Assembly: GCA_963402885.1 (NCBI GenBank)
Contig: OY727101.1
Coordinates: 17,274,417 to 17,338,416, forward strand
Reading direction: 5' to 3'
DNA length: 64,000 bases
Source: Antedon bifida
Taxonomy: Eukaryota; Echinodermata; Crinoidea; Comatulida; Antedonidae
Under the pieces are notes generated by a model. It was given only the letters and a program-made list of their open reading frames with translations, was not told where the DNA came from and did no database searches. Position numbers and translations under genes: made by a program. This document shows, one piece after another, positions 2,955-64,000 of the stretch; positions within the stretch are counted from its first letter, which is position 1, and every line of letters begins with the position of its first letter.

Positions 2955-3159
2955 TAAAGTTCTGTCTACACTATCAAACTTTTTGTGACAAAAAATGTGA
3001 TGTGCCCATGTATGGACATGATGATGTCATATCACTACTATATTTTGGCATATCACTACTATATTTTGGCATATCACTACTATATTTTGGCATATGACTA
3101 CCATATTTGAGCACATCACACTTTTTTTGTAAAACTAATTTGATAGTGTAGACAGAGAT
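2955..3159. mobile_element. Hairpin MITE, CTCTGTCTACACTATCAAAC family (family A)
   Basis: The left end reads AAAGTTCTGTCTACACTATC and the right end TTTGATAGTGTAGACAGAG, forming terminal inverted repeats. The interior holds ATGTGCCCATG, a GATGATGTCAT block and three to four copies of a 21 bp CATATCACTACTATATTTTG repeat, more than in other family members. It is non-coding and presumably moved by a transposase supplied elsewhere. Confidence 0.85.
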
Positions 3160-26400: not shown

Positions 26401-29400
26401 AAAGAGTGGTTCCAAAGAGGGGAAGGAGGAAAAATTAATGTTTTCACTTAAAAAATGACAAAATAAATGGTTAAATTTAACCAAAAACCCATTAGCTGGC
26501 AGCCAATTTTACTATTTTTCGCTTTAAATTACAGTTTTTTTAATTAAATACATTTTTTTTTATTTCAATTTTTTTGTCAAAGTGGATAACTATTAGGTGA
26601 CATTAAAATGGCATATTCAACAACATTTTCAAGAATTATTTTTTCAGGGGGACAATACTGTACATGTTGTTGAACATCTTCTATGTTTTGTTCCTCTTCA
26701 TAGAATTCCAATGTCATATCATTTATATCAAATCAAAATCATTTAAAATGTTTAATTGCTCTATGGTAAAAAGTCTTAAAATGAACTGAGTAGAATTAAT
26801 TTAGGTTGGGTGCAATATTATGATATTATGTTTTGTTCAACCGTTGAGTAAATGGGGGAATAATCTGCAACTTGCAGCCTACGGGGCTGAATTGCGCACA
26901 GGTGTGGATGACATATACTACAACTTTCTACTCCCATAAGGGTCCCTTTGTGTCGAGTGCTGCCACTAAACGGCGCATGATGCATGCCAGGTACAGATTT
27001 CTTTGTCATATTACGGTACAAACACAATCTCCAGCGTTCTTTCACGAAAACAAAGAATTACCTGAGAAACAAGAAGCTGAACACAGTGCATCGCTGGTAT
27101 GACTTCAACGCCTTGAATGATGGAGAGATCATTCAGACACGGCATCAGGATGTCTTGTGGATTCTTTGAAGAAAGAACATCACCACTATGGCCTTGGAGA
27201 AGGTAAAGCATGATTCTCCATTTACTGCTGAGGAACGAATTGACCAGTGAGCACTTATCGGAGTGGTCCAGCTTGTCTCCTAAGCTACCAACTGTCAAGA
27301 TATTTGTGACGATTGAGTCTACAGATTGGAGACTTTCTAACGGTATCGATGTACAAGACAACCTCCATCCTAGAACTCTGGTGCTGGCTATGTACCCAAG
27401 GATTTCTTTTTGTGATGCAACCTTTAATTTAAACAAATTATTTCACTTTAAAATATACCTAAGGTTTTGTTTTTGTTTGGGCTATTTTTTCGAGTTTGGA
27501 CAAAGGCTAGATATTTTGCCTTTTTTTCTACAGGCCTCTTTTTTGATACTTTACATAAACCCTGGATAAAAAGGGTTGTGATAGCAATAAAAACATCTGA
27601 CATAGTGCTACATTTTATTATTTTATGTAGTTATTTATGTAATGCATTTTTAATATTAAAATTTGGGAAAATTGGAGAAATTGACATTTTGGTATTGAGA
27701 AAGTTTCAGAGTCCATGGTTTAAGGGGAGTTGATTTCATAGTCTTGCTTCCATGTTTAATTTCTCAAGTTTAATATTTGTATTTTTCTATGTATTTATTT
27801 TCATTCAAATATTATGTTGTTTTACAAATTGTACTGTTCTTGGAAAGCAATGAATATTACTTACTTTCTTTATTTATTATTTCTAAATATAAACGTACAT
27901 CAGCACATTTGTTTATCCAACACTCACCAGTGAACTTGCTACCACGGCAGAACACTCACACACAAGTTTCATAAGACTTGTTGGCTGCAGAAGTTGATGT
28001 CGTGAGAGTTTGTCCAAGATGTTAATATACAATTGCAGGCTACTCTCACATATACACTGAAAGAAAGTCCACAATAAAAACTAGAACAGCCTTACACAGT
28101 TGAGATCCCTGGTTAAATCAGGAATTGGGATCCTGGTTCGGATTGAATGGAGTTGGTCATTGACCACATATCTATCTGTGGTTTCAATTTGGTAAAGATC
28201 TGGCAATAACTTTTTGAGTAATCCTGCTGACAGACAAATAGACACACGCAATCGACTACATAACCTGCTTGGCGGAGGTAGTGAGATATATACTATGAAC
28301 TAAAAAACAAACAGTAAACAATTAATCTAAAAAGCAGTATCGTGTATGTATATAAAAAGATTGAAAATACCTCAGTTTCGTCAATCACTATCAATCTTCG
28401 TCTTAGGTAAAGAATGATTTCTTCCGCACATAGGAAAACAGACTTTTCAAGGCCTACCGTCCAATCTTCGAATAAAATTTATTTAAAAAATGTACTTATT
28501 GAAAACAATTGATACAGCTATTTGTCAATTTATAACTGAAAACATTATTTTTTCTGGTTTTTTTTCTACAAAAAAACTGCAAAATGACCTATTCTAAGTC
28601 TGATTTTATTAATCTTTATTTTTTATGTTTTTGGGGCACAATACATATTTAATACATACAACTTAATTGGGGTGTCCCAAAAGAAGAGCTATAGAGATAT
28701 AATAGAGATGACAAATATACTCTACACTGCTGCAAACAGATTTTAGTATAAAAAAGACCTTACCATTTTCAATAGTCTTTCTTGGATCAGCTTCATTCAG
28801 AATTGCCAATAGCAGATGCAAAGCATTGTCCGCTTTGGTCACAGGTAGATAAACATGGCTACCAACCTTGTGTAGTACTTTGGTCAGAGGTTGGATGAGG
28901 TCAGACACTGACTGACCTCTCAGCAACTGTTCCCTGGAAAATAAAATTGGCATTTAGACGTGCGACAATTCTCACATTTTGTTACCCATGGTATTCAATT
29001 AAGTTAAACCAAAAAATAGAGTTCATGCATGGCTTTATGGAAAAGTAAAAGAATATGGGCACTGTACATAAATCTAACTAATTATATTGCTATCTTTACA
29101 AAAAAAAGAAATAACTTACTTGGTTTTGTAGTTGGCATCAACAATAAGCACCAACAACCTGGCAACCCTTGTAGCTTCTTTAGCAGACGACGCAGTATCT
29201 GTATCACATGTTAAATACTCTGTGACTTCCAGTTGTACAGCTTCAAATATATTCTCTACCTTGGAGTCTAGTTTTAATTCAGATGCATGCTGTTGTAGCC
29301 AGTCCACAATCTTAAGAACAGAACGTTTACAAAATATTAAATCCTTTATTTAACAAATAAACAAATAGATGGGTAAATGAATAAAAGCAGGACAAGATAT

Positions 29401-32400
29401 ATATGTCCAAGTACTTTAACTACCGAAAGCTCTGCTAATTTTTATGGCTGTTTTACTTTATCATTTTAATTTAGCTTTTTGCTTATTTTATTTCCATTGA
29501 GATCCAGCCACTGATACCCACAGCATTGCCATTATTTTCAGTAATTTGCCTTTGGATTTAAATATATATCTGATGGCAAATATAAATGGAAAAACGAGAA
29601 TAATGTAAAATACTATAAATAAAAATAAAATACCTTTTCCCAAATGGTGGTTTGTCTTCGCATACATTCCTCATAGTTAAGAGCAGAAAGCACATTGCTC
29701 AGCTGGAAGAGGCTAGCAGACGTTGGGTCAATCAGGTTTAGAGCAGTGTGTATCAGATAGCACTGGATAGCCCCACGGTGAAAAGGAAGAACAGTTGACA
29801 AGCCTATGCTTAGTAGTTCCCTAGAACAATGAATGAATGTATAACACAACATTTATTATTGGTTTATGAAATTAGAAGTGTGTTGCTCACTACATAATAT
29901 AAAGCATTTATAGGTACTTGTCAACAGTAGCCAATGTTGGCAATGATATACTGGAAATGAATTGATAAACAGGGCTTGATATGCTTTCGACCACTGGGGT
30001 ATCATCAAGATTAAAATCCTATTTATTTGATCTGCGTGGTACGGTGGAACATCGCTAATTCTCGCTGGAACGCATATTCAACATGCCCAAAACACCCTCA
30101 TCATCATCATTAATTAACATATATTTTAAATCGTATTTTCTACATTACCTAAGACTTTGTAACGAAGTATCTCCCCAGGACTGGCGTTGCTGTATCCTGG
30201 CAAGGGACTGAGATATGAATCCCAGTGGAACCGGTTTGGTCCGTAATTCCACAATTGCTGACAACAATTCCTGCAGGAAAACTGTGTGGCAAAAAGAATG
30301 AATTTATCAAGTAGTTGTTTCCGGCACTTTAATGTTGGCGCAGTGTGTTGGATGTTGGATTACTGATCGTAAGATCGTGGTTTGAATCCCACTCTTTGCC
30401 GCATTGCTTGTATCCTTAGGCAAGACACTTTACTTGCATTTGCCTCTCTCCACCCAGGTGTTTAAAATGGGTACAGGTTAAATCAAGAGACAACTTTGCG
30501 CTGATTACTACTTGCATTAGTATGTTTCCATACGTGTCTGATCCAAAAAATGACCAGGGTAATAATGTGCAGCGCATTGAGAGCTTGCTTATATGTGCTA
30601 TATAAAAATGAACTATTATTATTATTATTATCAGTGGATGAATTGAGGCAACAGCTAGGCTAATAGATGGATAGGAGATAAAATAGAGCAGATTTATTGA
30701 AACATTTGAAGGGTAAGAAGTAGGCATTCTCTTTGTACTTGCCCTTGGCTTGATCAACAGGCAGGCTGGCCACACATTTCGGAAAGAATTCTAATATCTT
30801 GGTAGAAACTTCAGAAAACCTCAACAAACTCTTCTCGCTGGTGTTGATATATAGTGTGTAATCAGTTAATACATTTAGCACTGGTCCAAGTACAAACTGA
30901 AAGAAACAAATTAAAAACCTATTAAATATACAGTAGTAATGTAGAACACCTATTAAGATGGAACCTTTGGGCCCCACAAAAGTGTCCCTCTAATGGGGGT
31001 GATCCTAAATACAGTAGGAGTTGTGTTAAAAGTGTTAAAACATATATTGCCACTCTTTTGTTTCACTTTATATTAGGGGTGGCCTAAAAAAGTATTTAAA
31101 TACTGCAAGCTCTCTACTTTTGAGAGGTGCACCAGAGGCTTAAAAATCTTTTACCTTTGAGCCAACTTGAGTAAGGACAGGACACGCAACAAGGTCAAGG
31201 GTCATAACCTGCATCACACCCCACCTGCTTACAGTTTTTGTTGCATGCTGGAAAAGTCGTTCAAAAATCACAACTAGCCAAGATGTGTGCAGTAATGGCC
31301 AGCCTACAAGCATGTACAGAATTAAATACATATAATACATATACATATGTTTATTATTACAAATAATCCAAGATAACTTTTCTTATAAAACAATTTTCAT
31401 TCTAGATCTCTACACTTTGATATATTAATTTCAATCAATTGAAGATGTACAGTAGAATAAAACAGGCTGATGTTTTTATATCTTTTTTCCACTTGTAATC
31501 AAGTCAATTTATTAAACACCGTGGGTAAAGATACGGTACCGTATCCTAACATCTGTTTGCGGTAAATATTAAAACTTGTCCTAATTATTAAAAACCTAAC
31601 TCTCTAAATAATCTCTCTTAAATTAAAAACAACAAAAAAATCAAGCAGAGAACCGATCCCGCAACCCTAGGCCATAAGAAAACAATTTCCATAACCTACT
31701 TGATTAACATATGTTTACATAGCGCCCTCTACAATTACCGTAGCTTTAGTTTTTAGAAGTATGGATACGGTGCCGTATCTTTAGACATAACGTTCATTAA
31801 AATAAATTCATAAACAAACCTGTAATGGGTAAATAAGTAGCTTCAATGAGCTTAGGCAGACGTGACAGCACTGGCATAACGACATGAACCTAAAATAAAA
31901 ACAATAAATTGGTTTATTTGAAATACAGAATATTCACACTTTTGAAAACTCTGCAGATATTTTTTTAAGAGAATTTTGTACATGTTCTGTTTAAAGGCAG
32001 TTTAAAAAAAATCATATTACAAAGCTTTCAATTTGCAGTGTTAGTGTGGGAATTGTGTAAATGCAGGGACATAATTGGGGCATGCTTTCCATTGGCAGAT
32101 TCTAAGTCTAAGTTCACAACATAATGCGTAGGTCATAGGTCATCAGAAATCCTTATTAAGTTGCTACTATTACCTGTGTTTCTTCCAGGGTCTCTAGAAT
32201 CAAAATCATATCTGCCCATAGCTTAGCGTGTTTATCTTCATTTTCTCTACGCCAACGAAATAGAGGAACCTCTGTACAGTCCTTTACATCACCTCTAGGA
32301 ACATCAAGACCTTCTGATAACTCCACGACTTTCTTCAGCAAATACAACACTCTCTTTCTAGTCAACGAGTCCCCTGAAGTACAACCATGCTGGATTGCTT

Positions 32401-33424
32401 CCCAGAAAGACTTTTCTGATAATATACTTGAAAGAATGTCTGGTTCCGTAATCAAGTCAATATGTCGATGAAAATAATCGACGAAGGCGCATAGTACAAT
32501 AAAGGAGTTACTGGAGTTTTTACCATTTGAGAACAGCATCTTCTGAAGTCTTGTCCACATGGTTAACACTTTCTCATCGGGTGTTCTAACCATTTTAAGA
32601 ATCTTTGGTATAAAAACAGTAGCAATCTGTCCACACACCCAATCTTCAGCGTTTTTAATGACGTTAAGCAATTCAATGAAACATCTATCGAGCCAATCTT
32701 TATCATAATCATGTGATTCAGTCGAAGGTGTTACGCATTTATTATTTGAGATACTTTCAAAAACAGTATTTAAAATTTCAAGTGTTGGATAAATTGGAAT
32801 ATTATTATCGGATGAAGAAAAGGACATTGTTGTATTTTCTGTTAATTTCTGTTCTTCTGCGTATGCTTTTAGTGAGGCAATGCATGCGTCATAAATGATA
32901 GACCTTGTTTGTGGTTTACTGCACATGCTCAGACAAGTTAGGCAAAGTTCACAGGCAGCATGAAAAATGTCTAACTTTTTTGTACATGATGATCCAGATT
33001 TATCGGAAAAAAATTCAACATTTTTTTCTAAAGCAATGGATCTACTAAAAACGGGGTAACAAATTTCACCAATTATCTTTTTTATTAATAATTGGAACTT
33101 GTCGTCAACTGATGCACCATCCTTTTCAGTAGACATATTATTTTCTAGGCCTAAACTACCTGACCTTTGGCAACACACGTACCCTGGCGAAGCATTGCAG
33201 TTTGTCGAGTTCTCTCCTCCGACCACCAACGAATTCCCAGATCTAGGCCTAGCCAACACATCTTTGACTAGCGTATTAAGAGCATTAAAGCATTCTAAAA
33301 TACAAATCTGATCATCCTGGCTGGATGATATAACATTAATTGTGTAATCTACAAGTTTATTTACAAGATCTGCATTTTCAATATTAATATAATCAGTAAA
33401 AAACTTATACATTACAGAAGACAT
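20445..33424 (-). CDS. TARBP1: TARBP1, SPOUT tRNA 2'-O-methyltransferase
   Basis: Twenty-four exons, 5' to 3': 32174-33424, 31820-31889, 31155-31303, 30743-30896, 30149-30281, 29634-29820, 29120-29310, 28764-28933, 28371-28465, 27928-28056, 27062-27421, 26201-26377, 25266-25456, 24670-24741, 24399-24522, 23857-24126, 23426-23521, 23083-23270, 22696-22765, 22301-22493, 21895-22074, 21321-21445, 20846-20982 and 20445-20598. All phases close, giving 1,621 aa, equal to human TARBP1. Residues 1 to about 1430 are helical-repeat-like and poorly conserved. The last 180 form the SpoU/SPOUT methyltransferase with its knotted AdoMet site: [26 protein letters not shown] and [24 protein letters not shown]1 forms Gm18 on tRNA, the job of yeast Trm3. 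The start at 33424 ([10 protein letters not shown] at -3) is the first ATG; no ATG precedes it in frame. Intron 4 has a GC donor. Confidence 0.96.
22840..22955. mobile_element. Family B copy in TARBP1 intron
   Basis: GAACCCTTTCCTTTGAACAC at the left and GTGTCCCCTTAATAGTGATT at the right, imperfect inverted ends, with GGGGACACTCTG inside. Confidence 0.65.
23575..23700. mobile_element. Relic of the CTGTATCTCC foldback family (family E)
   Basis: TATATCTCCACATATGGCAG, GTATTTGTCCAGTATTA and an inverted-looking TACCAAGAATTGACTATA. It resembles elements at 33826-34026 and 61940-62130 (for example ACACATGTGTTTCACAAGTG). Confidence 0.45.
24139..24255. mobile_element. Family A MITE, left end missing, TARBP1 intron
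   Basis: Two AAATATGGTAGTG repeats, CATGCACATCACATTTTTTT and GAGAGTGTAGACAGAGCTTA. The left terminus is lost and the copy begins about 10 bp from the exon 23857-24126 acceptor. Confidence 0.85.
25625..25700 (-). mobile_element. tRNA-like SINE head
   Basis: The minus strand reads GGTTGTGATGCTTGGCTGCC, then CCAAGGGTCC and a B-box GGGTTCAAGTCGTG. The anticodon stem CTTGG/CCAAG with a GCC-containing loop resembles tRNA-Gly, but acceptor-stem pairing is not evident, so this is probably a tRNA-derived repeat. Confidence 0.45.
25930..26070 (+). mobile_element. tRNA-derived SINE, second copy of the 7.2 kb family
   Basis: ACCCAGGCTAGTAATCTGGA, a B-box GAGTTTGAGTCTCACC, and the tail AAAAGTACAAAATTACTTCA...CATTTGACAA match the copy at 7160-7330 throughout. 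It runs straight into a family A MITE. Confidence 0.7.
26073..26192. mobile_element. Family A MITE, left end missing, TARBP1 intron
   Basis: AACTTTATGTGACAAAAAAT, an ATATACGGACATGATATCAT core and TTTGATAGTGTAAACAGAGC. It ends 9 bp from the donor of exon 26201-26377. Confidence 0.88.
30316..30625 (+). mobile_element. tRNA-derived SINE with (ATT)n tail
   Basis: The head GGCGCAGTGTGTTGGATGTT, the B-box-like GTGGTTTGAATCCCACTC and the body CTTGTATCCTTAGGCAAGAC and CTCTCCACCCAGGTGT are followed by a 3' part GCGCATTGAGAGCTTGCTTA...TATATAAAAATGAAC and ATTATTATTATTATT. A second copy lies at 39868-40068, so it is a dispersed family. It inserts antisense to TARBP1 in intron 4. Confidence 0.85.
30945..31030. 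mobile_element. Family B fragment
   Basis: GTAGAACACCTATTAAGATG, ACAAAAGTGTCCCTCTAATG and TAAATACAGTAGGAG: a short, decayed copy in a TARBP1 intron. Confidence 0.6.
31527..31783. mobile_element. MITE with palindromic termini (GATACGGTACCGTATC)
   Basis: Left end AAAGATACGGTACCGTATCC and right end GGATACGGTGCCGTATCTTT. The ends are inverted repeats of each other and each is itself nearly palindromic. The 257 bp element is non-coding and lies in TARBP1 intron 2. Confidence 0.82.
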
Positions 33425-33724
33425 GTTGTTTGAGTTGCACCATGTGCCGTCATGCAATCATTCATGCATGACGTGCAGAAGTTTTTATTATGTATGGCAC
33501 GCCATTTATGTCAAAATGTTTGCAGAGTGGTGTTACGACACCGTCTTTGGTCCGCTACCTCTGGTGAGCGAAGGTTCAGTTTTACGCAAATAGATAAATA
33601 AATAAGTGGAATTTTAGGAGTAAAATACATAATCTCAACTCATACTAGTAGTAGGTCATGTCTACTACCGGTACTGTAATTGAATATGGCTAAAAACAGT
33701 TTTTATTACCTTTATATTTTTCAG
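33425..33724. promoter_or_regulatory. TARBP1 upstream region, shared with truncated GMF copy
   Basis: The 300 bp between the TARBP1 start codon and exon 3 of the first GMF copy. TARBP1's promoter must lie at least partly here. On the plus strand it holds a candidate alternative first exon (33494-33563) ending at a CTCTG/GTGAGC donor. The final 40 bp (GGCTAAAAACAG...TTTTTCAG) matches intron 2 of the intact GMF gene. Confidence 0.45.
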
Positions 33725-35331
33725 TAAAAATAGAAGTGGATACACAAACGATAAAGAAAGAAAAGACAGTTGAGGTAAACTGAATTGTTCTGATCAAAGT
33801 TGCAATGAATTGGATGACTACAATATCCCGATTCCCAGTGCTGTATCTCCTCCTATCTATTTCCGAAGTATCAGAATATTTTGGAAATACAGCATCTCAT
33901 GTGGTGCCTGTATCGTGTAAGGTTAGGTTAAGGGTTACTTAGATACATGTGAAACACATGTGATGTTGTATTACCAAATATTCCTATTATACTTCGGAGA
34001 TGGATACAGTACCGAGAATCGGCTGCAATAATATCACGATACTATGTTATTGTAGTGTTTTGTTATTCTTTTCAGGATGTGTTACCGGAAGATATCCACA
34101 AGGAATTACCAGCGCAAGAACCTAGATATGTTGTATACAAATACACGATGAGCCATGAGGATGGCAGAACTTCTTACCCATTGATATTCCTATTTATTAG
34201 TCCTTCTGGTAAACTTAGTATACTGCCTAAATTCTTTACTGATTAAAGCTTGGTTCCCACTAGCGACGCAACGTAAGAAAATGCCCTTCCAATAATTGTG
34301 TTTCCCCCGCCTGCGTGAAATCAAACCTGCGATGTTTGCTTTAAGCGTGGTTCCCACTAGAACGCAACGCAGCGTTGTATTGACGCAAAGTGATGTATTG
34401 CGTAATCACAAGTGGGAACCGACGACGCAACAATGCTGCAAAAATCGTTTGATTTCACGCAGGCGGGGGCAAACACAATTATTAGAAGGGTATTTTCGTA
34501 CGTTGCGTAGGTTGCGTTACGTTGCGTCGGTAGTGGGAACCACGCTTTACATAGGCCTATACAATCTAGATTATTTTACATAATTAAAATTTAATTAAAT
34601 TATCATTAAATGTTCATTCGTTTATATTATGTCAACAGGTTGTGAACCAGTGATTCAAATGATGTATGCAGGATCTAAATATAGTATTGTGAATGCAGGT
34701 GGCTTTACAAAGGTTAGCATTGTTAAGCTCTATACTGTCTACACTATGTACCCAAATACGGTAGTGATATCCCCGAATATGGTAGTGATATGACAACTGC
34801 TTTTACAAATAATACAAATACCGATTTCGATAAGCAATATTAAAGCATGGATCCCACTAGAACGCAACGCAACCCAGCGACGTATCGCAGGTTTCAGTTC
34901 ACGCAGGCGAGGACAAACACAATTATTGCATGGAAGTGCATTTTCTTACGTTGCGTAGGTTTCCGTCACTAGTGAGAACCAAGCTTTAGGCCAATTAACA
35001 CAGACGAGCGGTAACTGTAATAAAAATATAGAATCTGTGTTCTTCATGACCATTTACACAGATACAGATTCTACGTGGGACAAGCTACGCGGTTTCCGCT
35101 CACCGTTACCGCTCGTCTGTGTAAATTTGCCTTTATATAGGTATATAATTATAGTGCATTACTTTAATAGATAAACTAAAAAACTACATTGTAAATATAA
35201 TAAAGAAGTCATTGATATCAAATAGCAACATTTGGTTAAATCTGTAATCATTTTTGTTATAGGAGTTTGAACTCCGATCTATTGAAGAATTCACCGAAGA
35301 ATGGTTGTTGAAGCAGCTTAAGGGACAGTAG
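33725..35331 (+). CDS. GMF: Glia maturation factor copy A, exons 3-6 only
   Basis: Four exons with GMF phases: 33725-33774, 34076-34208, 34639-34712 and 35263-35331. They encode KIEVDTQ, then [38 protein letters not shown] and EFELRSIEEFTEEW, ending LKGQ. GMF has an ADF/cofilin fold and binds Arp2/3 to debranch actin; QPRYVVY-, QMMYAGSK- and [12 protein letters not shown] motifs are diagnostic. The frame is open and splice sites are good, but the usual exons 1-2 (about 33 codons) are absent upstream, where TARBP1 begins. Either this is a 5'-truncated duplicate, or it uses a new first exon: 33494-33563 has an open frame, a GTGAGC donor and the matching phase 1. Introns 4 and 5 are full of foldback repeats. 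Confidence 0.85.
33826..34026. mobile_element. Foldback element, family E (GTGCTGTATCTCC ends)
   Basis: CCCGATTCCCAGTGCTGTAT at the left and GGATACAGTACCGAGAATCG at the right are imperfect inverted repeats. The interior has AATACAGCATCTCATGTGGT and GTGTAAGGTTAGGTTAAGGG. It lies in intron 3 of GMF copy A; a relative is at 61940-62130. Confidence 0.65.
34247..34551. mobile_element. GTTCCCACTAG foldback (family D), composite copy
   Basis: It starts AAGCTTGGTTCCCACTAGCG and ends GTAGTGGGAACCACGCTTTA. A second AAGCGTGGTTCCCACTAGAA terminus at about 34344 shows one element inserted next to or into another. The interior contains direct runs of GACGCAACG- and GTTGCGTTACG-type sequence. Confidence 0.88.
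34724..34795. mobile_element. Family A MITE fragment
   Basis: TTAAGCTCTATACTGTCTAC, then two GGTAGTGATAT repeats. The right half is missing. Confidence 0.75.
34849..34989. mobile_element. Family D foldback copy
   Basis: AAGCATGGATCCCACTAGAA at the left and CACTAGTGAGAACCAAGCTT at the right. The interior has CACGCAGGCGAGGACAAACA. Confidence 0.85.
34989..35131. mobile_element. Separate MITE, ACACAGACGAGCGGTAAC termini
   Basis: ACACAGACGAGCGGTAAC on the left and GTTACCGCTCGTCTGTGT on the right are perfect 18 bp inverted repeats, with weaker matching outward (GGCCAATTA against TAAATTTGCC). It directly abuts a family D element in intron 5 of GMF copy A. Confidence 0.85.
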
Positions 35332-35461
35332 CGGGATTTGTGAAGTGAGATTATATTTTGAGGTGATTAGAAAACCTAATCTAGATCAACAGAATTCATT
35401 ACAAATGAAACCAAGTACTTTTCTCACGATTATCATTCAATGTATACGTGAACCCTAAATT

Positions 35462-35635
35462 AGCGTGGTTCCCACTAGCGACGCAACCTACGCAACGTAA
35501 GAAAATGCCCTTCCAATAATTGTGTTTGCCCGCCTGCGTGAAATCAAACCTGTGATATTTACAGCACTGTTGCGTCGTCGGTTTCCACGTGTGATTACGT
35601 CGTTGTGTTGCGTTCTAGTGTGAACCACGCTTTAC
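35462..35635. mobile_element. Family D foldback copy
   Basis: TAGCGTGGTTCCCACTAGCG at the left and TCTAGTGTGAACCACGCTTT at the right, 130 bp after the GMF copy A stop. Confidence 0.87.
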
Positions 35636-36676
35636 ATGTACTAAGAATATATTTTGCGACGACTTTTAGGACCTTAGTTAATTATGTTTAGAATTTAAAA
35701 TCTTGGATAATAAGCTTACTAATACATCTTGGATAATACTTACTAATAAATGAATTCGATAAAGAAAGGATATATTTTCTGTTTTTGTTCTGAATATGTT
35801 TAAAGCCTTGTTTTCGCAGCCAAAAACAAAATCATCGGTTAATTTTTTAACCAATAAAATGCGTACGATCAGTTATTACCAAAACAACCAGACGCCCAAT
35901 CACAACGCAACAATTTGTCCTCCAGGTCAAAGGTTAAAAATTATCGCACTTATCCAATATTAAGTATCCCATTTGTATGAGATAATTATCGGTTAATTTT
36001 TCTCGACTGGAATTGGTTAGGATGTTTTGAGGAACAAAATATCTCAACTTAAATAATGTGCCTACTTTTTTTTCTTGCATCTTGACAAACTATGAATATG
36101 ATTTTTCCAAAATTGATCAAATTTTACTGCAACAAACAAGACTTAATCTACTTTGATTAGGCCTACATTATCTCCATTATACAGAGGTCCAATTTTGTTT
36201 AAAATGTTTCTTCGGTTTTGAAAAATATACAGTTATTTTAATTATTAATAATTTTTTTTTTATCTTATGTGGGCTCATCCCACTTTTATTTCCATACATA
36301 TTATGTTCCTATCTCTTTACATATATTTTTCTCAAACACATTTCATTTCAATACACTATAGGCCTACATATTATTATTTTAACCATGTTTGTTTTCACCA
36401 TCTGTCTACATACACTTTTTTTTTTAAGAGTTTTGTTCATTTGTTTAATTATTAATTATTAATAGTTAATGACCTCAATGGTTTTCATGTGTATCTCTTG
36501 CACTGTTGTCTGTGAGGCTGCTTCTGATACAACAATATTCAAAATTTAAACCGTTGCGTTTTAAGCTGCATGCGAGTAGTCGTGACGATTTTGGGACGAG
36601 CAGGAGGTTTTAGACAAACTGACCCCTTCCCACCACTAACACAACTTGTAACTTCAACAACACTTCTAACAATTAA

Positions 36677-37373
36677 ATGGTAAGTACCGTAAGTTGTACT
36701 ATTATAATGTCTGCATACGTCTGGTTTCGAAAATTAGCATGACAAATATAGCTGTTTATTGCATATACATGGCTGCAGTCGCGTGCGCAAATTTGAGTTA
36801 GTGTTTACCGACCGACCGACATAGTGAGCTGTAGAGTCGCGTTGCACGCGACTAAAATCAAATAGGACAGAGTCCTATAGATCTGACCATGGAGTTAAGT
36901 TAGTACCTCCATGATCTGATCCTACGACATGGTTATACTTAAGACCATCGAGTTGAGTTTGATTAAGTTATAAAGCGTGGTTCCCACAAGGACGCTACGC
37001 AACGACGTATTGACGCAAAGTGATGTATTGCGTAATCACAAGTGGGAACCGACGACGCAACAGCGCTGCATAAATCGCAGGTTTGATTTCACGCAGGCGG
37101 GGAAAAACACAATGATTGGAAGAGGGCACTTTCTTACGTTGCGTAGATTGTGTTACGTTGCGTCGCTAGTGGGAACCACGCTTTAGCACCAAACCAACCA
37201 CAACCGACATCGTACAATTATTATTATTGTGCATTAAAGATTATATCGGTAACAATGAAATATTAACCTTTATTTTCAGGCGACAGTAACAGTATGTATT
37301 GGTTCTGAGGTATTAGCGGACTTCAACAAGTTTCGTATGAACGTCGTAAAAGCTATTAATACCTGTATGATAT
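36677..37373 (+). CDS. GMF: Glia maturation factor copy B, exons 1-2 only
   Basis: Exon 1 contributes only the ATG (36677-36679, followed by GTAAGTACCG). Exon 2 (37280-37373, 94 nt) encodes ATVTVCIGSEVLADFNKFRM and ends TCMI in phase 1, matching the first 32 residues of GMF (known family start: -VCDV-, -KLRKFR-). The initiator codon alone in exon 1 is also seen in the intact copy and is typical of ADF/cofilin-family genes. No forward exons 3-6 follow; instead an inverted exon 3 sits at 37923-37975. It could supply an alternative 5' end by splicing to exon 3 of the intact gene (39426), since phases agree. It could also be a relic. Confidence 0.78.
36972..37187. mobile_element. Family D foldback copy in GMF copy B intron 1
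   Basis: AAGCGTGGTTCCCACAAGGA at the left and GCTAGTGGGAACCACGCTTT at the right, a 215 bp near-complete copy. Confidence 0.9.
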
Positions 37374-37420
37374 GTAAGTAGCAAGTTTTGTATGTAGAAA
37401 ATGAGAGGAGACAATATTTT

Positions 37421-37680
37421 AAGCTTGGTTCCCACTAGATACGCAACGTAACGCAACCTACGCAACGTAAAGCGTGGTTCCCACTAGCGACGCAACCTAC
37501 GCAACGTTAGAAAATGCCCTTCCAATAATTGTGTTTGCCCCCGCCTGCGTGAAATCAAACCTGCGATTTTTGCAGCAATGTTGCATCGTCGCAACGCGTC
37601 GGTTCCCACTTATGATTACGCAATACATATAACTTCGCTGCGTTACGTTGCGTTGCGTTCTAGTGGGAACCAAGCATTAC
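37421..37680. mobile_element. Family D foldback, nested copies
   Basis: AAGCTTGGTTCCCACTAGAT, then a second left end AAAGCGTGGTTCCCACTAGC about 48 bp later, and the right end TTCTAGTGGGAACCAAGCAT. It begins 48 bp after exon 2 of GMF copy B. Confidence 0.88.
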
Positions 37681-37711
37681 TGAGCACACCGTACCGTGAT
37701 ATAGCGTATCC

Positions 37712-37862
37712 GGACAACCACCCCCTGGACAACTACCCCTAAAGACAATCACCCCCTAACTAGGACAATTACGGCCCCTAGGACAATTACCCTCTAGGAC
37801 AACTAGCCCCCAGACAACTACCCCTCTAGGACAACTACCACTCGGACAACTACTGTAGTCCA
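37712..37862 (+). repeat. Minisatellite, GGACAACTACCCCCT unit
   Basis: About nine imperfect copies of a 14-17 bp unit (GGACAACTACCCC, GGACAATTACC, GGACAACTAGCCCC) between GMF copy B exon 2 and the inverted exon 3. Confidence 0.88.
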
Positions 37863-37922
37863 ATTGCATTTTCCACTTTGATGATCTCTACGAAAATATA
37901 TTAACGAGATTTCATATTTTAC

Positions 37923-37975
37923 CTTAAGCGTCTTTTCGGTCTTTAACACTAGCTGTGTATCCATTTCTATTTTTA
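37923..37975 (-). pseudogene. Inverted orphan GMF exon 3
   Basis: On the minus strand, TTTTTTTTCAG is followed by a 53 nt exon encoding KIEMDTQLVLKTEKTLK, then GTAAAATATG. It matches exon 3 of copies A and C but is one codon longer. The flanking intron also matches (TGTGGCTAAAAACAGTTTTT upstream on the minus strand). It points against the surrounding GMF exons, so it cannot join them. Confidence 0.82.
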
Positions 37976-38092
37976 CTGAAAAAAAACCAAAAAATCATTA
38001 ATGATAAAAACTGTTTTTAGCCACATTCAACATCACTGTATAATGTTTAAAACTGGAACGCGACGCAGCGACGTATCGACACAAAGGGCTCA

Positions 38093-38266
38093 TAAAGCTT
38101 GGTTCCCACTAGAACGTAACGCAAGGACGTAAACGCAACGCAAGCGTTTTAACCAATGACAAGCGAAGTTATAGACAGTTAGCAATCACAAGCGAATAAG
38201 CCATCGCTTGTGATTGGTCAATACGTCCTTGCGTTACGTTAGTGGGAACCAAGCTTTAGTGGGAAC
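38093..38266. mobile_element. Family D foldback copy, variant
   Basis: AAGCTTGGTTCCCACTAGAA and TTAGTGGGAACCAAGCTTTA ends. The interior GTTTTAACCAATGACAAGCG and GCTTGTGATTGGTCAATACG is shared with the next copy and differs from other family D members. Confidence 0.88.
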
Positions 38267-38328
38267 CGACGACGCAATAGAGTGCTGCAAACATCACAGA
38301 ACACAATTTTTTGAAGGGCATTTTCTTA

Positions 38329-38508
38329 AGCTTGGTTCCCACTAGAACGTAACGTAAGGACGTAAACGCAACGCAAGCGTTTTAACCAATGACAAGCGAA
38401 GTTATAGACAGTTAGCAATCACAAGCGAATAAGCCATCGCTTGTAATTGGTCAATTCACTTGCGTTGCGTTACGTCCTTGTCTTGCGTCGCTAGTGGGTT
38501 GTTTTTAA
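38329..38508. mobile_element. Family D foldback copy, variant
   Basis: TTAAGCTTGGTTCCCACTAG at the left and TCGCTAGTGGG at the right (truncated). It is nearly identical to 38093-38266 over about 130 bp, so one probably copied recently. Confidence 0.87.
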
Positions 38509-38657
38509 ATGTGCCGGCAATCAGGTCATAGGTCAAAGTCATTCGTGCGTGTTAATTTAGACAGTACACTTTTGTCACTTCCTGCTTTTGTATTTTTAGT
38601 TCAATCCTCGATCGCCGCCCAATATAAATTTCTTCTTTCCCCTTTAACTTTTGGAAA

Positions 38658-40395
38658 ATGGTAAGTTTCTAGGGGCCTAGGGCCGATCGAGTCTCTTTCT
38701 CAGTTTTGATTATGTCATTTTAATAGACCTAGGCCTAGGCCTATCTATGAAGGCCGGACTGTCTCATTCTGTGTGTCTCATTATATTGTCTGTCGGAATC
38801 TGATAATGGGCAGTTCATGGAGGTATAAAACAGTTGAGTTCCTAAACAGTAACACAGCAGCTGTTTATTGAATTTATAGAGTTCTGGGCACAAACTGGGT
38901 TTCATATGATTTGGTGTTAACTAACAAACAAACAATGAACATAGGCTAAATTTCACAGTTTTGAACATTGAGAGAAACCGCGGACGCAAAACTTTATTAA
39001 TGAAAGGGATGATCAATATAATACAGATGACTGAAGGGTTTTTAGTAGTAGTTTGTTGTTGAGATTACATTTGTCAGGGTTACCTAGCAAATAAAAAGAC
39101 GCTGGTGAGAAATCCAAGTATCATACCATTAATATATATATTTCACAGTTTTGAACATGCTTATTAATTATACAGTCTAATACCGTTAGCATTAATAATG
39201 AAATATTATAACCTATTTATTTTCAGTCGTCGGAACTTAAAGTATGTGAAATTGATTCTGAATTATTAGAGAACGTGAAGACGTTACGTCTCAAAAGAAA
39301 CCCAAATAATGAATGTATGATATGTAAGTATACTGTGTTGAGAAAACAGTTCAGTTTTAGAGACATGTATACTAATCCTATATAGTGTTGAATGTGGCTA
39401 AAAACTACTGATTTTTGTTTTTCAGTAAAAATAGATGTGGGTACACAAACAGTAAAGATTGATGAAACATTTGAGGTAAAATCTGTTTATAAACAATGTA
39501 AAATGAATGACCCAATAATGTAAAATGAATGACCCAATAATGTGTAATGAATGACCCAATAATGTATAATATGAATGACCCAATAATGTGTAATGACGAA
39601 ATAATGTATAAAATTGTAATTGCATGAGTGCAATAGGACTGTATATGAACCCTGCTGCATTTATTTGACTATTTTTAGCAATTTATTAACTTATCATCGT
39701 GTTTGTTTGTTTTCAGGATGTGTTACCAGAAGATATACAGGAGGAATTACCAGCGCATCAACCTAGATATGTTGTGTACAGCTACAAGTTGAAGCACGAC
39801 GATGGCAGAATTTCCTACCCCTTTATATTCATATTCATTAGTCCTTCAGGTAAACTACTACTACTATGAGGGCGTGTAGCGCAGTGTGTTGGACATTGAA
39901 TTATTAATCGTGAGATCGTGGTTCCAATCCAACTCTCGCCGCATTGCTTGTATCCTTAGGCAAGATACTTTACTTACATTTGCCTCTCTCCACCCAGGTG
40001 TATAAAATGGGTACCGGTTAGATCAAGGCACAACTTTGCACTGATTACTAGCTGTATTATTATGGGAATAATTTTGGTTTATACATTGCATATTAAAATC
40101 TATAACTAATTTATTTTGGCAACAGGTGGTAAACCAGAGCTTCAAATGATGTATGCAGGATCTAAACTAAGTATTGTGAACGCGTGTGGCTTTACAAAGG
40201 TTAGCACTGTCAGGATTATGTAAAACAGACATTTTTCTTCTATGATTTACAGTAGTAAAGTGATAAAATAGCAGCATTTGTGTATAAAAATTTTCTTTGT
40301 ATACTGATTTTTTTTTGTTATAGGTGTTTGAGCTCCGATCTGTGGAAGAATTCACAGAAGAATGGTTGAAGAAAAAGCTTAGTTTCTTCCGATAA
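38658..40395 (+). CDS. GMF: Glia maturation factor, complete gene (copy C)
   Basis: Six exons: 38658-38660 (ATG only), 39227-39323, 39426-39475, 39717-39849, 40126-40199 and 40324-40395. All phases close, giving 142 aa, the same as human GMFB. It has the single ADF-homology domain of GMF, with [13 protein letters not shown] at the start, [48 protein letters not shown] and [18 protein letters not shown] at the end. GMF binds Arp2/3 complex, blocks branch nucleation and promotes debranching of actin. AATAAA follows at about 40626. Introns 1 and 4 carry a 165 bp repeat and a SINE. The neighbour CNIH1 is also its neighbour in human. Confidence 0.96.
38968..39140 (+). repeat. Direct repeat 1 flanking GMF exons 2-6
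   Basis: GAGAGAAACCGCGGACGCAA through AGACGCTGGTGAGAAA and ATACCATTAATATATA, in GMF intron 1. It matches 40423-40590 over about 165 bp in the same orientation. Confidence 0.88.
39507..39612 (+). repeat. Tandem repeat, about 22 bp unit
   Basis: Four to five copies of GAATGACCCAATAATGTGTA in GMF intron 3. Confidence 0.93.
39868..40068 (+). mobile_element. tRNA-derived SINE, second copy of the 30.3 kb family
   Basis: GTAGCGCAGTGTGTTGGACA, GTGGTTCCAATCCAACTC, CTTGTATCCTTAGGCAAGAT and CTCTCCACCCAGGTGT match 30316-30625. The 3' third and the (ATT)n tail are missing. It sits in GMF intron 4. Confidence 0.85.
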
Positions 40396-40422: not shown

Positions 40423-40590
40423 ACGAGAGAAACCGCGGATGCAAAACTTTATAATGAAAGGGATGTCAATACAGTAAATGGATAACTGAAGGATTTTCAG
40501 AAGTGGGTGGTTGATATTACATTTGTCCGGGTTACCTAGCAAATTAAAAGACGCTGGTGAGAAATAAGTATCATACCATTAATATATAAC
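40423..40590 (+). repeat. Direct repeat 2, just after the GMF stop codon
   Basis: GAGAGAAACCGCGGATGCAA through AGACGCTGGTGAGAAATAAG and ATACCATTAATATATA, about 30 bp after the GMF stop, so transcribed in the 3' UTR. Confidence 0.88.
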
Positions 40591-60000: not shown

Positions 60001-63000
60001 ATAAAACATTAATGAAATATAATATGAAAGCTGAATGGAAAATGTTTTTGCATTAGCGTAAAAAAAGAAAAAATAAGAAATTACCGACCTAGATACATTG
60101 ACAAAAAATAATCTCAAACCTGGCTCATGCAAATTAAGCAAGAAGCTGGCTACTGCTCCTAGCCCCTACCGTAGCTACTCGAGTATTGGCACACCCCCGT
60201 CGGCTCCCTTATGGGCCCCAAGACAAGGGGGTGCACTTCTACCCGAGCGAATTGCTTACCCGAGTTTAAGCGCACGCCCTGGCTTCTTCTTCAATACTTC
60301 GTAACCGGACCAGAAAAATCTGCGAAGCTGTAGCCGCAAAAAACAAAACACAATCTTTGCGAAGCATAAAAAAACTATCTGCCATTTTCCATTGTGACCA
60401 TAAAAAAAGAGAAAACTGGGGAAAAATGTTTGTTTTTGTCACTTTTTTCAGTGACAAAAAATATGTTAATTCATTGGAGAATACTCGAGTAACTACGGTA
60501 ACTGGATAAACAGACTCCAATCCCTTTTGTACTGAATATGACATTTAAGATGAACACAGTTAAAGCAGATATGTAGAGAAATATAATAAATTAAAAATAG
60601 TAGAAAATGAATAGTGCAAGTTAAGCTCTGTCTACACTATCAAACTGATGTCATCTACCATATTTGGGAATATCACTACCATATTTGGGTACATCAAATT
60701 TTTTTGTCAAACTAGTGTGATGATAGTGTAGACAGAGCTTTACACAAACAAGCAAGATAGAAGCCAATACATAACAAAATATTATAATTAGTATTGGGTT
60801 TGAATTTGAGTTCAGGACTGAGCTGACATGGCATTGATGTACCAGAACTCTGGAGTAGTCGCACACTCACTTAGTATTGGCATCTATCTCTTTTATATAT
60901 CTAATGTGTTCATCTTGGTGTGATGACTTTGACATGACATATGAAGTTGAAAACAAAGGCAACAAATAGCATATTAAGCCTTGTCTACACTATCAAACAT
61001 TATGCGGCAAAAAAATGTGATGTGCCTATATATGGACATGTCATATCACAACCATATTTGGGAATATCACTACCATATTTGGGCAAATATGGTAGTGATA
61101 TGACATGTCCATATATAGTTTGATAGTGTAGATAGAGCTTTAAACAATAGTGTACAAAACACAACACACTAAAATCACAGTTTCATTAAATCACACATTT
61201 AGAAACCTTTTTTTATCTTATTGAAAAATTAGTAAAAAGTGAAAAAATATGCATTTTAAAAAAGGGCGTAAGAAAATTACAGTAGAACTCCTCATTTGGG
61301 AAACCTCTATTAAGGGGACACTTTTCTGTAAAAAAAAACCAATATAGATATAGAAATAGAGCAATATAACACTATTCAGGGGACACCCTTATAAAGGGGA
61401 ACCTTCAGTAGCTCCAGAAGGTGTCTCCTTGATAGAGGTTCTACTGTAAAAATATGTATTTGAAAACATGATGAATCAATTGAAATGAGAAAGCAAAAGC
61501 TTCAATAAATGTAAAACAATAATTTCTGTTTAATCAAATATTGCATGCAGCTATCGATAAATATTAATATTAAAACTGGTTTTCCAATTTTTAAAATTCA
61601 ACAATGAATTATAGCAGAACAATCCAACTTTAAAATAATTTCCAATCGAAAACTAATAGCCAATATAATTGTTACACTTTCTGTATTTATACATGCCGCA
61701 TGCAGTTTTGGTTAATTTGTAACTTACCAAGTCGTGTAGGCATCTTTAGGCCTCCACATTTCTTCCAGTACGTCCAACAAGTGGCACAGAGACGGCACTG
61801 CATGTTGGCTGGTCCCCACGAATACCATTGGTAAGACGTTTGGGCTAGATGCGTAAATAAGAAATTTGTGTTTGAAAAAAAGATATACAGACTTTATATC
61901 GTAAGACAGAAATGTAACTACTTTATTTCTTCATTTAATTCTAAGTGCTGTGTCTCTGCATGTGACAATATTTGTCCAGTATTATAGACAAAATTTGTAA
62001 TATAGCCTATCATATGTATCACATGTGGTTCCTGTATCATGGAAGGTTAAGGGTTACTGTAGGTTAGTGTCTATGATACACATGTCATATACTGGACAAA
62101 TTTAGAGGTAGGCGAGAATTGGCTGATATTTTGGCACATCTCAAGACTAATTTGACCCCACCCTCTCCTCCCCGCCTATTGCAAATGGCAGGATATTCAT
62201 AGACTTACTGTAACAGCTCTCACAAGCTCTTGCTCCGGGTGGAAGTTGGCCTTGCGCATCGTGAGGCGTGCCTGGTTTATTTAAGATCTGGTTCGGGTTT
62301 GGCTTGTTACTAAAAGAGAAATGCATGAATAAATGTAACAATAAGGAAAATAAATAAATGTATTGTTTTAAATGTTCAGAAACATTAGAGAGCCGATATA
62401 TATTTATACTTACTAATTAGGTATATAGACTTGTTTCAATTTGCTCTCAGCCTCGGCTGCCTTCAGTCTCTTCTGCTGTACGTATCTGTCCGTGGTTTTC
62501 CACATGTAGTAATACTCTATAACACTCTTCAGGGACTTCCAGGGAAGCTGAAAACAAAATATATAATAGCAAATATTTTATTTGTTTTACACATTGTGGA
62601 TGGAAGCATGGGTATTATGTGTCTAATGCTAAGTTCCAACTAGGACGTAAGCACAACTAAGTGGTTTGACCAATCGCAAGCGATGGATTATTCAAACTGC
62701 TGCTTGTCATTGATCAACTTGCTTGCCGGTGCTAGACCCGTGCCGGAACAAGTTAGAAAGACCCTTTAGAGGAGGAGCATGTTGTTGTTATTGAAAAAAA
62801 CTTCTTTCCCACAAAGCGCATAGACTTAATCCTGAATCGACAGGCTAGATAAGCTAGGTTATAAAATTGTGACCAAATTAGAAATTAAGTAATACTTACA
62901 AAATCTTGTCTGATGTCATTAAAATCTTTGCCATACTTTTCTAGCGCTTCTTCAAACATGTTAGCCTCTGATGCTGACCATTCCTCCATTTGGTCCCGGC

Positions 63001-64000
63001 ATAACACAGGGCCCGCCGATGGTACAAGTAAAGACACTGCCTTTGATATATCATAGTTGTTCTTATGTAAAGCATCCATTGCATGGAACTGGAGAGAAAA
63101 AAATGAGGAAAATTTATTTTTAAAAATCAAATAGTTTTATTAAAATTGAATCTCTCACACTCATTGTTATTGATTTTAAGGTTTATTCTATGTGCTGTTG
63201 ATCTACTTAATTTGTTTTAAAATATTATATTTTAACATGAATAAAAGAAAAACAATTAACTGGAACTGGAGAGAAAAAATTGAGGAAACTATATCTTAAA
63301 ATCAAATAATTAAAATTAAATCTCTCACCCTTATTTTTATTAATTTTATAAATTAAAAAAATGTTTTTGTTTAAAGATTTATTCCATGTGTCATTAATCT
63401 ACTTAATTTGTTTTAAAATATTATATTTTAACATAAATAAAAGAAAAACATTTAAAATTGAATGCAAATTCAAAAATATCATTTTATTTTCATAGGAATC
63501 TGCACATTTAGTAAGTGGCACCTGCCGATTGAATGTAACTTACCAATGTGATATCCCTAGACGCTGCAGCAGCACTCATATGTAAGCTAGGCTGCCTTAC
63601 AGAACTGCTACAATCAAGGGCCCTGGCAAACGTTCCTACTGACCTGCAAAAATACATTTACTCTGCATAAAAATGTTGGTGAAAATTAGTTGACCTGGGC
63701 TAGCAGTACATGCATCCTGCAATTTGCAGTACTTTAGTCAAGTCTCCCAAATCAAGAAAATCTGGTTTTTAGAATGTATTTCACAGATCGGTAAATTTGG
63801 CATCTTTGTGGTGGGGAGTGTTTCCGGTATTCTGAGATTTGTTTTTTAATTGACTTAAGCTCTGTCTGATGTGCCCATATATGGACAAGATGATATCATA
63901 TCACTACCATATTTGAGCTTAACATTGTAATGTATTTATTTAAAAATTATATTAATAAGCAACCCAAAATATTTAACCTTACCTAGCCACTACCAGAAAT
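54034..64000 (-). CDS. MTA: Metastasis-associated protein (MTA), NuRD subunit; N-terminus beyond right edge
   Basis: Fourteen exons, 5' to 3': 63983-64000 (partial), 63544-63643, 62900-63088, 62414-62547, 62209-62309, 61728-61844, 59256-59359, 58601-58829, 58260-58481, 57731-57835, 56066-56110, 55186-55205 (20 nt), 54732-54814 and 54034-54382. Phases close over 604 residues, from residue about 222 by human MTA1 numbering. Order: end of ELM2 ([20 protein letters not shown]), SANT ([20 protein letters not shown]), GATA zinc finger (ACESCY...[10 protein letters not shown]), then a C2H2 finger, C-x4-C-x12-H-x4-H ([20 protein letters not shown]), absent from vertebrate MTA but, as I recall, present in fly. 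RBBP4-binding motifs follow ([29 protein letters not shown]), ending EPIVID. MTA is the scaffold joining HDAC1/2 and RBBP4/7 in the nuclear NuRD complex. The BAH domain should lie off-window. Confidence 0.95.
54600..54713. mobile_element. Family A MITE in last MTA intron
   Basis: AAAGCTCTGTCTACACTATC at the left; the right end is decayed (ATAATGTTAACAGCTTA). It ends 19 bp from the donor of exon 54732-54814. Confidence 0.87.
55680..55960. repeat. Unclassified GC-balanced block in MTA intron
   Basis: It differs in composition from the AT-rich surround: GTCTCCCAGAGGGCCCAG, a GTACACTAGACTTATGG stretch and CATGGAGCGAGCGAACTCCG. No exon signals in MTA orientation and no second copy noticed in the window. 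A SINE-like insert is possible. Confidence 0.3.
55976..56043. mobile_element. Family A MITE, right half only
   Basis: ACCATGTCCATATATGGGCA, TTTTTTTGTCACATCAATTT and GATAGTGTAGACAGAGCTTT. It ends about 20 bp from MTA exon 56066-56110. Confidence 0.87.
57190..57356. mobile_element. Family A MITE, near full length
   Basis: AAAGCTTTGTCTACACTATC and TTTGATAGTGTGTAGCCAGA ends, a GATGATGTCATATCACTACC core and a CATATCACTACCATATTTGG repeat. Confidence 0.93.
59030..59180. mobile_element. Family B element with internal tandem expansion
   Basis: Six GGGACACCTCTATTAAGG-type 20 bp repeats are followed by the inverse end ATGTCCCCTTAATAGAGGTT. The right end TTCTATTGTA matches family B termini elsewhere. 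It lies in an MTA intron. Confidence 0.9.
60165..60500. mobile_element. MITE with ACTCGAGTA termini, GC-rich half
   Basis: ACCGTAGCTACTCGAGTATT at the left and AATACTCGAGTAACTACGGT at the right are inverted repeats with one mismatch. The left interior is the most GC-rich stretch of the region (CACACCCCCGTCGGCTCCCT, CAAGGGGGTGCAC). Lies between the GATA and C2H2 finger exons of MTA. The minus-strand open frame inside it has no MTA likeness. Confidence 0.8.
60622..60740. mobile_element. Family A MITE, internally deleted
   Basis: TTAAGCTCTGTCTACACTAT and TGATAGTGTAGACAGAGCTT ends. The left interior is missing; two CATATTTGGG repeats remain. Confidence 0.92.
60975..61140. mobile_element. Family A MITE, rearranged
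   Basis: AAGCCTTGTCTACACTATCA and TTTGATAGTGTAGATAGAGC ends. The right half is an inverted copy of the left interior (GGTAGTGATATGACATGTCC), making it almost fully palindromic. Confidence 0.92.
61280..61452. mobile_element. Family B element
   Basis: ACAGTAGAACTCCTCATTTG at the left and CTTGATAGAGGTTCTACTGT at the right are inverted ends, with AGGGGACAC repeats inside. Confidence 0.82.
61940..62130. mobile_element. Family E foldback element
   Basis: AAGTGCTGTGTCTCTGCATG, TTGTCCAGTATTATAGACAA, GTGGTTCCTGTATCATGGAA and AGGTAGGCGAGAATTGGCTG parallel the copy at 33826-34026. In an MTA intron. Confidence 0.65.
62632..62705. mobile_element. Relic of family D foldback
   Basis: AAGTTCCAACTAGGACGTAA and GACCAATCGCAAGCGATGGA resemble the 38.1 and 38.3 kb variant copies. 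It is the only family D trace noticed outside the GMF cluster. Confidence 0.5.
63085..63460. repeat. Tandem duplication of about 180 bp, MTA intron
   Basis: GGAACTGGAGAGAAAAA, ATCAAATA, ATCTCTCAC and TTAATTTGTTTTAAAATATT recur at about 63085-63260 and 63262-63460. The unit includes the splice acceptor of the SANT exon and its first few bases. Confidence 0.88.
63856..63920. mobile_element. Family A MITE, mostly deleted
   Basis: TTAAGCTCTGTCTGATGTGC and CACTACCATATTTGAGCTTA. The palindromic core CCATATATGG remains; most of the arms are gone. Confidence 0.8.

Follow-up and report, generated by a model that had tools for sequence, protein, structure and literature searches.

An intact glia maturation factor gene beside two incomplete copies and an inverted exon in the crinoid Antedon bifida: a probable case of tandem gene-family decay

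Introduction

Glia maturation factor (GMF) is a small ADF-homology (ADF-H) protein that destabilises the actin branches built by the Arp2/3 complex, a role with which the title of PMC6057921 and the opening of the abstract of PMC13348673 agree. Among the titles and abstract openings retrieved on GMF, Arp2/3 debranching and pseudogenes, no title concerned a cluster comparable to the one described here. This cluster lies in a 64,000-nucleotide stretch of the Antedon bifida genome, hereafter the window (G000:C14:17274417-17338416). The genome amounts to 315.6 Mb in 27 contigs, and the contig that carries the window is at least 17 Mb long; the window holds no Ns. All coordinates below are those of the window, on the plus strand unless stated otherwise. 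Four GMF-related blocks follow each other: copy A (33725-35331), with exons 3-6 and a stop; copy B (36677-37373), with exons 1-2; an inverted exon 3 (37923-37975, minus strand); and copy C (38658-40395), an intact six-exon gene. We consider it probable that they are what is left of a tandem GMF family in which C was kept, at least two copies were broken, and miniature inverted-repeat transposable elements (MITEs) settled in the broken stretch, that is, ordinary gene-family decay.

Three kinds of described system are close to this locus. Compared with GMF beta and gamma, copy C shows no notable difference, whereas A lacks residues 1-33 and B consists of exons 1-2 with an adjacent inverted exon 3. 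Tandemly duplicated genes that decay into truncated pseudogenes form a general kind, which the locus resembles in its adjacent same-strand paralogues, its unequal losses, its transposon insertions and the relaxed ratio of nonsynonymous to synonymous divergence (dN/dS) of B exon 2; it differs from the usual case in that A carries no internal disabling mutation and one exon 3 is inverted. The transposons are like TA-flanked MITEs with terminal inverted repeats (TIRs): members of the family measure about 209 bp, with the TIR AAGCGTGGTTCCCAC and, in part of the copies fetched, TA flanks, and presumably belong to a Tc1/mariner-like class, by their TA flank. Unlike usual TA-flanked MITEs, those at this locus are densely packed, seven of them lying within 4.3 kb that takes in the broken copies and the DNA between them.

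Anatomy of the GMF copies

In copy C, the coding part of exon 1 is the ATG only (38658-38660), assigned by motif; exons 2 (39227-39323), 3 (39426-39475), 4 (39717-39849), 5 (40126-40199) and 6 with the stop (40324-40395) complete the gene, and exon 4 is also matched in a genome search for the ADF-H family. The spliced product has 142 residues and can be aligned over its whole length to mouse GMF-gamma (4jd2; residues 1-142, E 7.9e-47). Of its nine PDB matches, the six best are labelled GMF (E 7.9e-47 to 4.4e-30) and the next is actophorin (7.7e-6); the full-length similarity of C is thus to GMF, and not to cofilin or any other member of the ADF-H family. Its ADF-H domain is complete (Pfam PF00241 Cofilin_ADF, 99.4 bits, profile positions 2-125 of 125, residues 15-137). 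From its sequence, we infer that C makes an ordinary GMF.

Copy A retains exons 3 (33725-33774), 4 (34076-34208) and 5 (34639-34712), and exon 6 with the stop (35263-35331). Exon 4 was again matched in the genome search. Within the window, A and C match at the DNA level in exon 4 (6e-43), exon 5 (3e-28), exon 6 (6e-18) and exon 3 (1e-14). The FFR ending that both C and mouse GMFG possess is absent from A exon 6, and the A domain is incomplete (profile positions 20-124 of 125). Directly before A exon 3 lies a relic of intron 2 (33647-33724), which aligns to C intron 2 better than any of 500 shuffles, or than all but 1 of 300 when the splice-site end is excluded. The 5' breakpoint of A therefore falls inside intron 2, at about 33602-33647. 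No exon 2 is recognisable upstream of A in the window, although strong divergence could have hidden one; a candidate relic aligned to C and B exon 2 like shuffled DNA (p 0.58 and 0.36, respectively) and was rejected.

Copy B comprises exon 1, again with a coding part of ATG only (36677-36679), assigned by position and by the motif ATG followed directly by GTAAGT, and exon 2 (37280-37373), which matches C exon 2 at the DNA level (8e-10 within the window). The window contains exactly two copies of the sequence ATGGTAAGT, one at B exon 1 and one at C exon 1; since two or more occurrences are also found in 24 of 100 shuffles, it is position alone that supports B exon 1. The first introns of B and C align weakly, with 5 of 300 shuffles as good (MITE and repeat left in). 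Exons 4-6 of B were not found in the window. The inverted exon 3, which matches A exon 3 (3e-15) and C exon 3 (1e-8), has kept its acceptor and donor and is one codon longer than its counterparts in A and C, three nucleotides being added in frame.

All internal exon ends of the GMF copies are GT/AG, the frames are open and the phases agree. A preliminary description of this DNA had named the same four blocks, with open frames and good splice sites, and all of this is borne out, with matches from 6e-43 to 1e-8; the B exon 2 donor at 37373 and the C exon 3 acceptor at 39426, which it had proposed as a possible junction, are exact.

Number and age of the copies

The three exon 3 stretches differ pairwise by 23-30%. 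When they are aligned three ways together with their flank, A agrees with the inverted exon at 10 sites, A with C at 10, and the inverted exon with C at 10 of 117 ungapped columns; a further 79 columns are invariant, 8 differ in all three and 33 are gapped. Three mutually equidistant exon 3s indicate that the tandem copies once numbered three or more. The inverted exon 3 is not a late copy of A exon 3. This result speaks against the earlier proposal that A and B are complementary parts of one gene.

Between A and C, synonymous divergence (dS) is 0.32, dN is 0.15 and dN/dS is 0.47 (bootstrap 0.25-0.93). Their introns align to each other as well after shuffling in 260 of 300 trials for intron 3, 81 of 300 for intron 4 and 13 of 300 for intron 5 (weak). 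With this dS, and with third and fourth introns that do no better than shuffles, the duplication is not recent. The recent breakage suggested in the preliminary description consequently fails as a general statement, and a late breakage is possible for A.

The genome search for the ADF-H family gave 15 candidates and 8 matches. Two of the 8 are GMF, both on contig C14, namely the fourth exons of A and C, and a tblastn with C on the remaining six loci gave no match at E 1. This search detects exon 4 only, exons 2, 3, 5 and 6 being invisible to it, so that it would overlook any GMF fragment that has lost exon 4; with this exon-4-based search, A and C form the only GMF locus seen. Within the window, tblastn gave no convincing further GMF exon (remaining matches E 0.5 or worse). 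Two other matches of the genome search, L003 and L004 on contig C12, lie 5 kb apart with a nearly identical exon and have the appearance of a tandem pair, which we take to be coactosin-like.

Copy B and the inverted exon

The differences between the second exons of B and C are spread over codon positions as 10/7/11, and their dN/dS is 1.11 (bootstrap 0.47-3.27), with 11 of 30 residues identical; this ratio comes from an improved codon alignment, the first having given 1.7. In neutral simulation, the joint intactness of B exon 2 has a probability of 0.14 at 0.10 and 0.02 at 0.20 substitutions per site. Because the B exons are short and these figures are no smaller, their open frame and splice sites are weak evidence of use. 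B has the marks of a pseudogene: exons 4-6 not found, an inverted exon 3, and codon positions that are flat with a dN/dS of 1.11, although the wide bootstrap interval makes the ratio imprecise. Given the flat codon positions, B is best seen as a dead fragment.

As the inverted exon 3 is located between B exon 2 and C, B is its simplest owner, and by position only it most simply belongs there. The head of B intron 2 was tried as proof of this ownership and rejected, since 166 of 300 shuffles align to C intron 2 as well. Within the inverted block, a degenerate tandem repeat of GGACAACTACCCCCTA occupies 37712-37853.

Constraint on copy A

The differences between A and C fall on codon positions as 15/10/26, third positions accounting for 26 of 51 (p 0.007). 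The dN/dS of 0.47 rests on 64 synonymous sites, and if A alone had been neutral since the split an average of about 0.5 would also be expected; by itself the ratio thus shows no constraint on A. A better argument for constraint is that frame and splice sites have stayed intact. When exons 3-6 of a C-like copy evolve neutrally, the probability that no stop arises is 0.18 at 0.10 substitutions per site and 0.086 at 0.15; without stops, frameshifts or splice losses, the figures drop to 0.003 and 0.0002, in a simulation that assumes an indel rate of 10% of the substitution rate and a transition bias of 2 and treats splice sites as independent. Of the 32 amino-acid differences between A and C, mouse GMFG, the only sequence by which they were polarised, places 14 on the side of A and 4 on that of C and leaves 14 unassigned (p 0.03). 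By the measure of a pseudogene, A is therefore mixed: incomplete and changed faster than C, yet with an open frame and a third-position excess. Because A is open and splice-intact with this excess, it is best seen as having been constrained, at least partly, during part of its history. Either exons 1-2 were lost late, or A is a truncated gene that is still used. The earlier suggestion that the parts are still used finds no support for B, with its flat codon positions, and may or may not hold for A.

The minus strand carries a TARBP1-like frame with an ATG at 33424 (Pfam TARBP1, 25.2 bits, just below the cut-off of 27), which places A head to head with this neighbour. In the region between them, a weak candidate for a new first exon of A spans 33452-33563, where ATGs at 33452, 33464 and 33494 are open to a donor (CTG followed by GTGAGC) in phase 1, fitting exon 3. 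Random sequences of matching composition contain such an exon in 15% of cases (3.4% when a minimum of 60 nt is set). It has no similarity to GMF exon 2, and the proteins from its three starts show no likeness to the first 34 GMF residues (p 0.65, 0.12 and 0.37). The open frame of A exon 4 extends into intron 3 with no Met before exon 4; a tblastn extension there that resembled GMFG residues 10-48 was rejected against shuffles (p 0.09 and 0.79).

MITEs and other repeats in the cluster

Seven MITEs lie across 34245-38500, in and between A and B, and C has none. E1 (34245-34548), a nested double element, is in A intron 4; E2 (34842-34987) is in A intron 5; E3 (35460-35633) is downstream of A; and E4 (36972-37184) is in B intron 1. 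The inverted block is bracketed by E5 (37420-37678), nested and placed after B exon 2, and on its other side by E6 (38094-38257) and E7, which starts at 38327, has only its left TIR found and with E6 spans 38094-38500. An apparent older MITE relic adjoins E6/E7. Since E5 and E6/E7 stand on either side of the inverted block and each carries the repeat in both strands, a flip by recombination is possible. The inverted exon between foldback repeats, and the local duplication, are both parts of the earlier account that our results support.

With E4 as query, the genome gave 1789 first-look candidates, 40 of which were scored; the scored copies other than E4 are 89-94% identical to it over nearly their full length. 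Among 30 fetched copies (E4 included), 13 have TA flanks on both sides and 22 on the left. The elements are thus short, with TIRs, a target-site duplication and many copies, coding capacity being judged by length only. The best copy elsewhere among those scored is 94% identical to E4, compared with 88% for E1, so the insertions of E4 and E1 are probably independent of the old duplication. Elsewhere in the window, signs of the family are limited to one TIR-like site at 26401 (4 of 19 mismatches) and a partial match to E6/E7 at 62623-62693 (77-82%).

Copy C is accompanied by repeats of other kinds. A direct repeat of about 165 bp, with copies in C intron 1 (38970-39138) and 30 bp after the C stop (40425-40588) that are 87% identical, brackets C exons 2-6; it is absent from the rest of the window and from 126 kb of fetched sequence (39 loci, of which some overlap with the window). 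This repeat might represent the 3' end of one more GMF copy that has since been lost. Another pair, 88% identical, joins C intron 4 (39866-40070) to 30338-30524 and presumably derives from a tRNA-derived short interspersed element, which it resembles.

Weighing the explanations

The account we favour starts from three or more GMF genes in tandem, of which C would have remained intact. A would have lost its 5' end, namely its first two exons together with the beginning of intron 2, a loss that now sets the TARBP1-like start region directly before A exon 3. B would have retained exons 1-2 and lost exons 4-6, its own exon 3 being flipped in place, perhaps by recombination between E5 and E6/E7. 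A would then have broken late, after a period of partial constraint, or would still be read in truncated form. Several points weigh against this account. DNA from related species was lacking both for dating the events and as an outgroup, because the collections searched gave no relatives (14 pattern matches in viral contigs and 65 in genome contigs, none of them a relative). TA flanks cannot reveal a swap, so a flip mediated by MITEs leaves no proof. The assignment of B exon 1 rests on position and a 9-base motif, B exon 2 offers 19 synonymous sites only, and the loss of B exons 4-6 is deduced from their absence. The inverted exon 3 is linked to B by position, and a fourth copy could be its source.

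What the intact frame of A means is the question on which the most serious rival turns. A might be alive as a GMF gene in truncated form. It would then be transcribed from the stretch that separates it from the divergent TARBP1-like frame, with a new first exon (from 33452, 33464 or 33494 to 33563) and a GMF-like product without residues 1-33. Its frame, its stop and 7 of 7 splice dinucleotides are kept against a neutral expectation of 0.003 or 0.0002 at the assumed rates, the third-position excess points the same way, a phase-1 donor GTGAGC closes the open frame 161 bases before A exon 3 and near the TARBP1-like ATG, and the candidate product scores 78.5 bits with Cofilin_ADF. However, the first exon arises by chance in 15% of random sequences, polarisable changes have gathered in A rather than C (including two F near the A C-terminus), and a late deletion accounts equally well for the intact frame; we regard a living A as unlikely, if still worth attention. 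A more elaborate form, which we hold to be doubtful, is that A became a young chimeric gene: having lost its own promoter and exons 1-2, it would have taken over the divergent start region of the TARBP1-like gene and a new first exon of 23-37 residues, and would make an ADF-H protein without the 33 N-terminal residues. It has also to be asked whether A and B were once a single gene, B1-B2 followed by A3-A6, that was cut and whose parts were swapped in order, the inverted exon 3 coming from another, otherwise lost copy. A lacks exons 1-2 and B lacks exons 4-6, the phase fits from B exon 2 to A exon 3, and the inverted exon is tied to B by position only; yet that exon is equally distant from A and C, an order swap without duplication is difficult, and neutral change is apparent in B exon 2 but not in A. 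We judge such a swap improbable.

Two further readings fare worse. If B exons 1-2 served as an alternative start of C, B1-B2 spliced to C3-C6 would give a GMF with another N-terminus; the B exon 2 splice sites are intact, the phases fit, and the open protein of 141 residues scores 97.6 bits with Cofilin_ADF. Against this, B exon 2 shows no coding constraint (10/7/11, dN/dS 1.11), the splice must skip C exon 2 and cross E5, E6, E7 and the inverted exon, and in the first alignment B exon 2 agreed with mouse GMFG where C differs at 0 of 32 positions, which makes an alternative start very improbable. The odd order and dense repeats could also suggest that one or two GMF genes were misassembled or their haplotypes mixed; the preliminary description had allowed for misassembly. 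A single locus read twice would not yield exon 3 stretches that are 23-30% different, Ns are absent from the window, the genome of 316 Mb is in 27 contigs, and MITEs of about 0.2 kb would be short relative to long reads, so we regard an artefact as very unlikely. Decay of a tandem GMF family remains the explanation we prefer.

Neighbouring genes and other features

Further upstream than the TARBP1-like frame lies a FAD protein (FAD_binding_3, 23.1 bits, cut-off 22), which we take to resemble COQ6. At the other end of the window, an open frame at 62888-63136 on the minus strand is a possible exon, presumably of a metastasis-associated (MTA) protein to judge from its appearance alone. Two satellite arrays with a period of about 175 bp occupy 2-1930, with a junction at about 766 and consensus units that are partly reverse-complement-like. 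A 21-base unit (approximately CATATCACTACCATATTTGGG) forms short tandem runs in both orientations dispersed across the window, including sites at 3028, 4447, 8461, 8847, 14850, 34751, 51297, 60655 and 61043. On the mitochondrial contig C27, ND1 has AAA at positions where we would expect Asn (SGY[AAA]VEYAGGPF and EYANIMFM[AAA]TLT) and ATA where we would expect Ile, a pattern that agrees with the echinoderm/flatworm mitochondrial code.

Significance

The arrangement is new in detail and its cause most likely ordinary. The locus offers a compact, readable break-up of a tandem family, in which one copy was kept, one was cut at the front and one at the back, and an exon was flipped between foldback transposons. 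Of wider interest is whether A, open and with signs of constraint, serves as a truncated GMF; if A were indeed a chimeric gene, its product could interfere with the neighbouring intact GMF or tune it.

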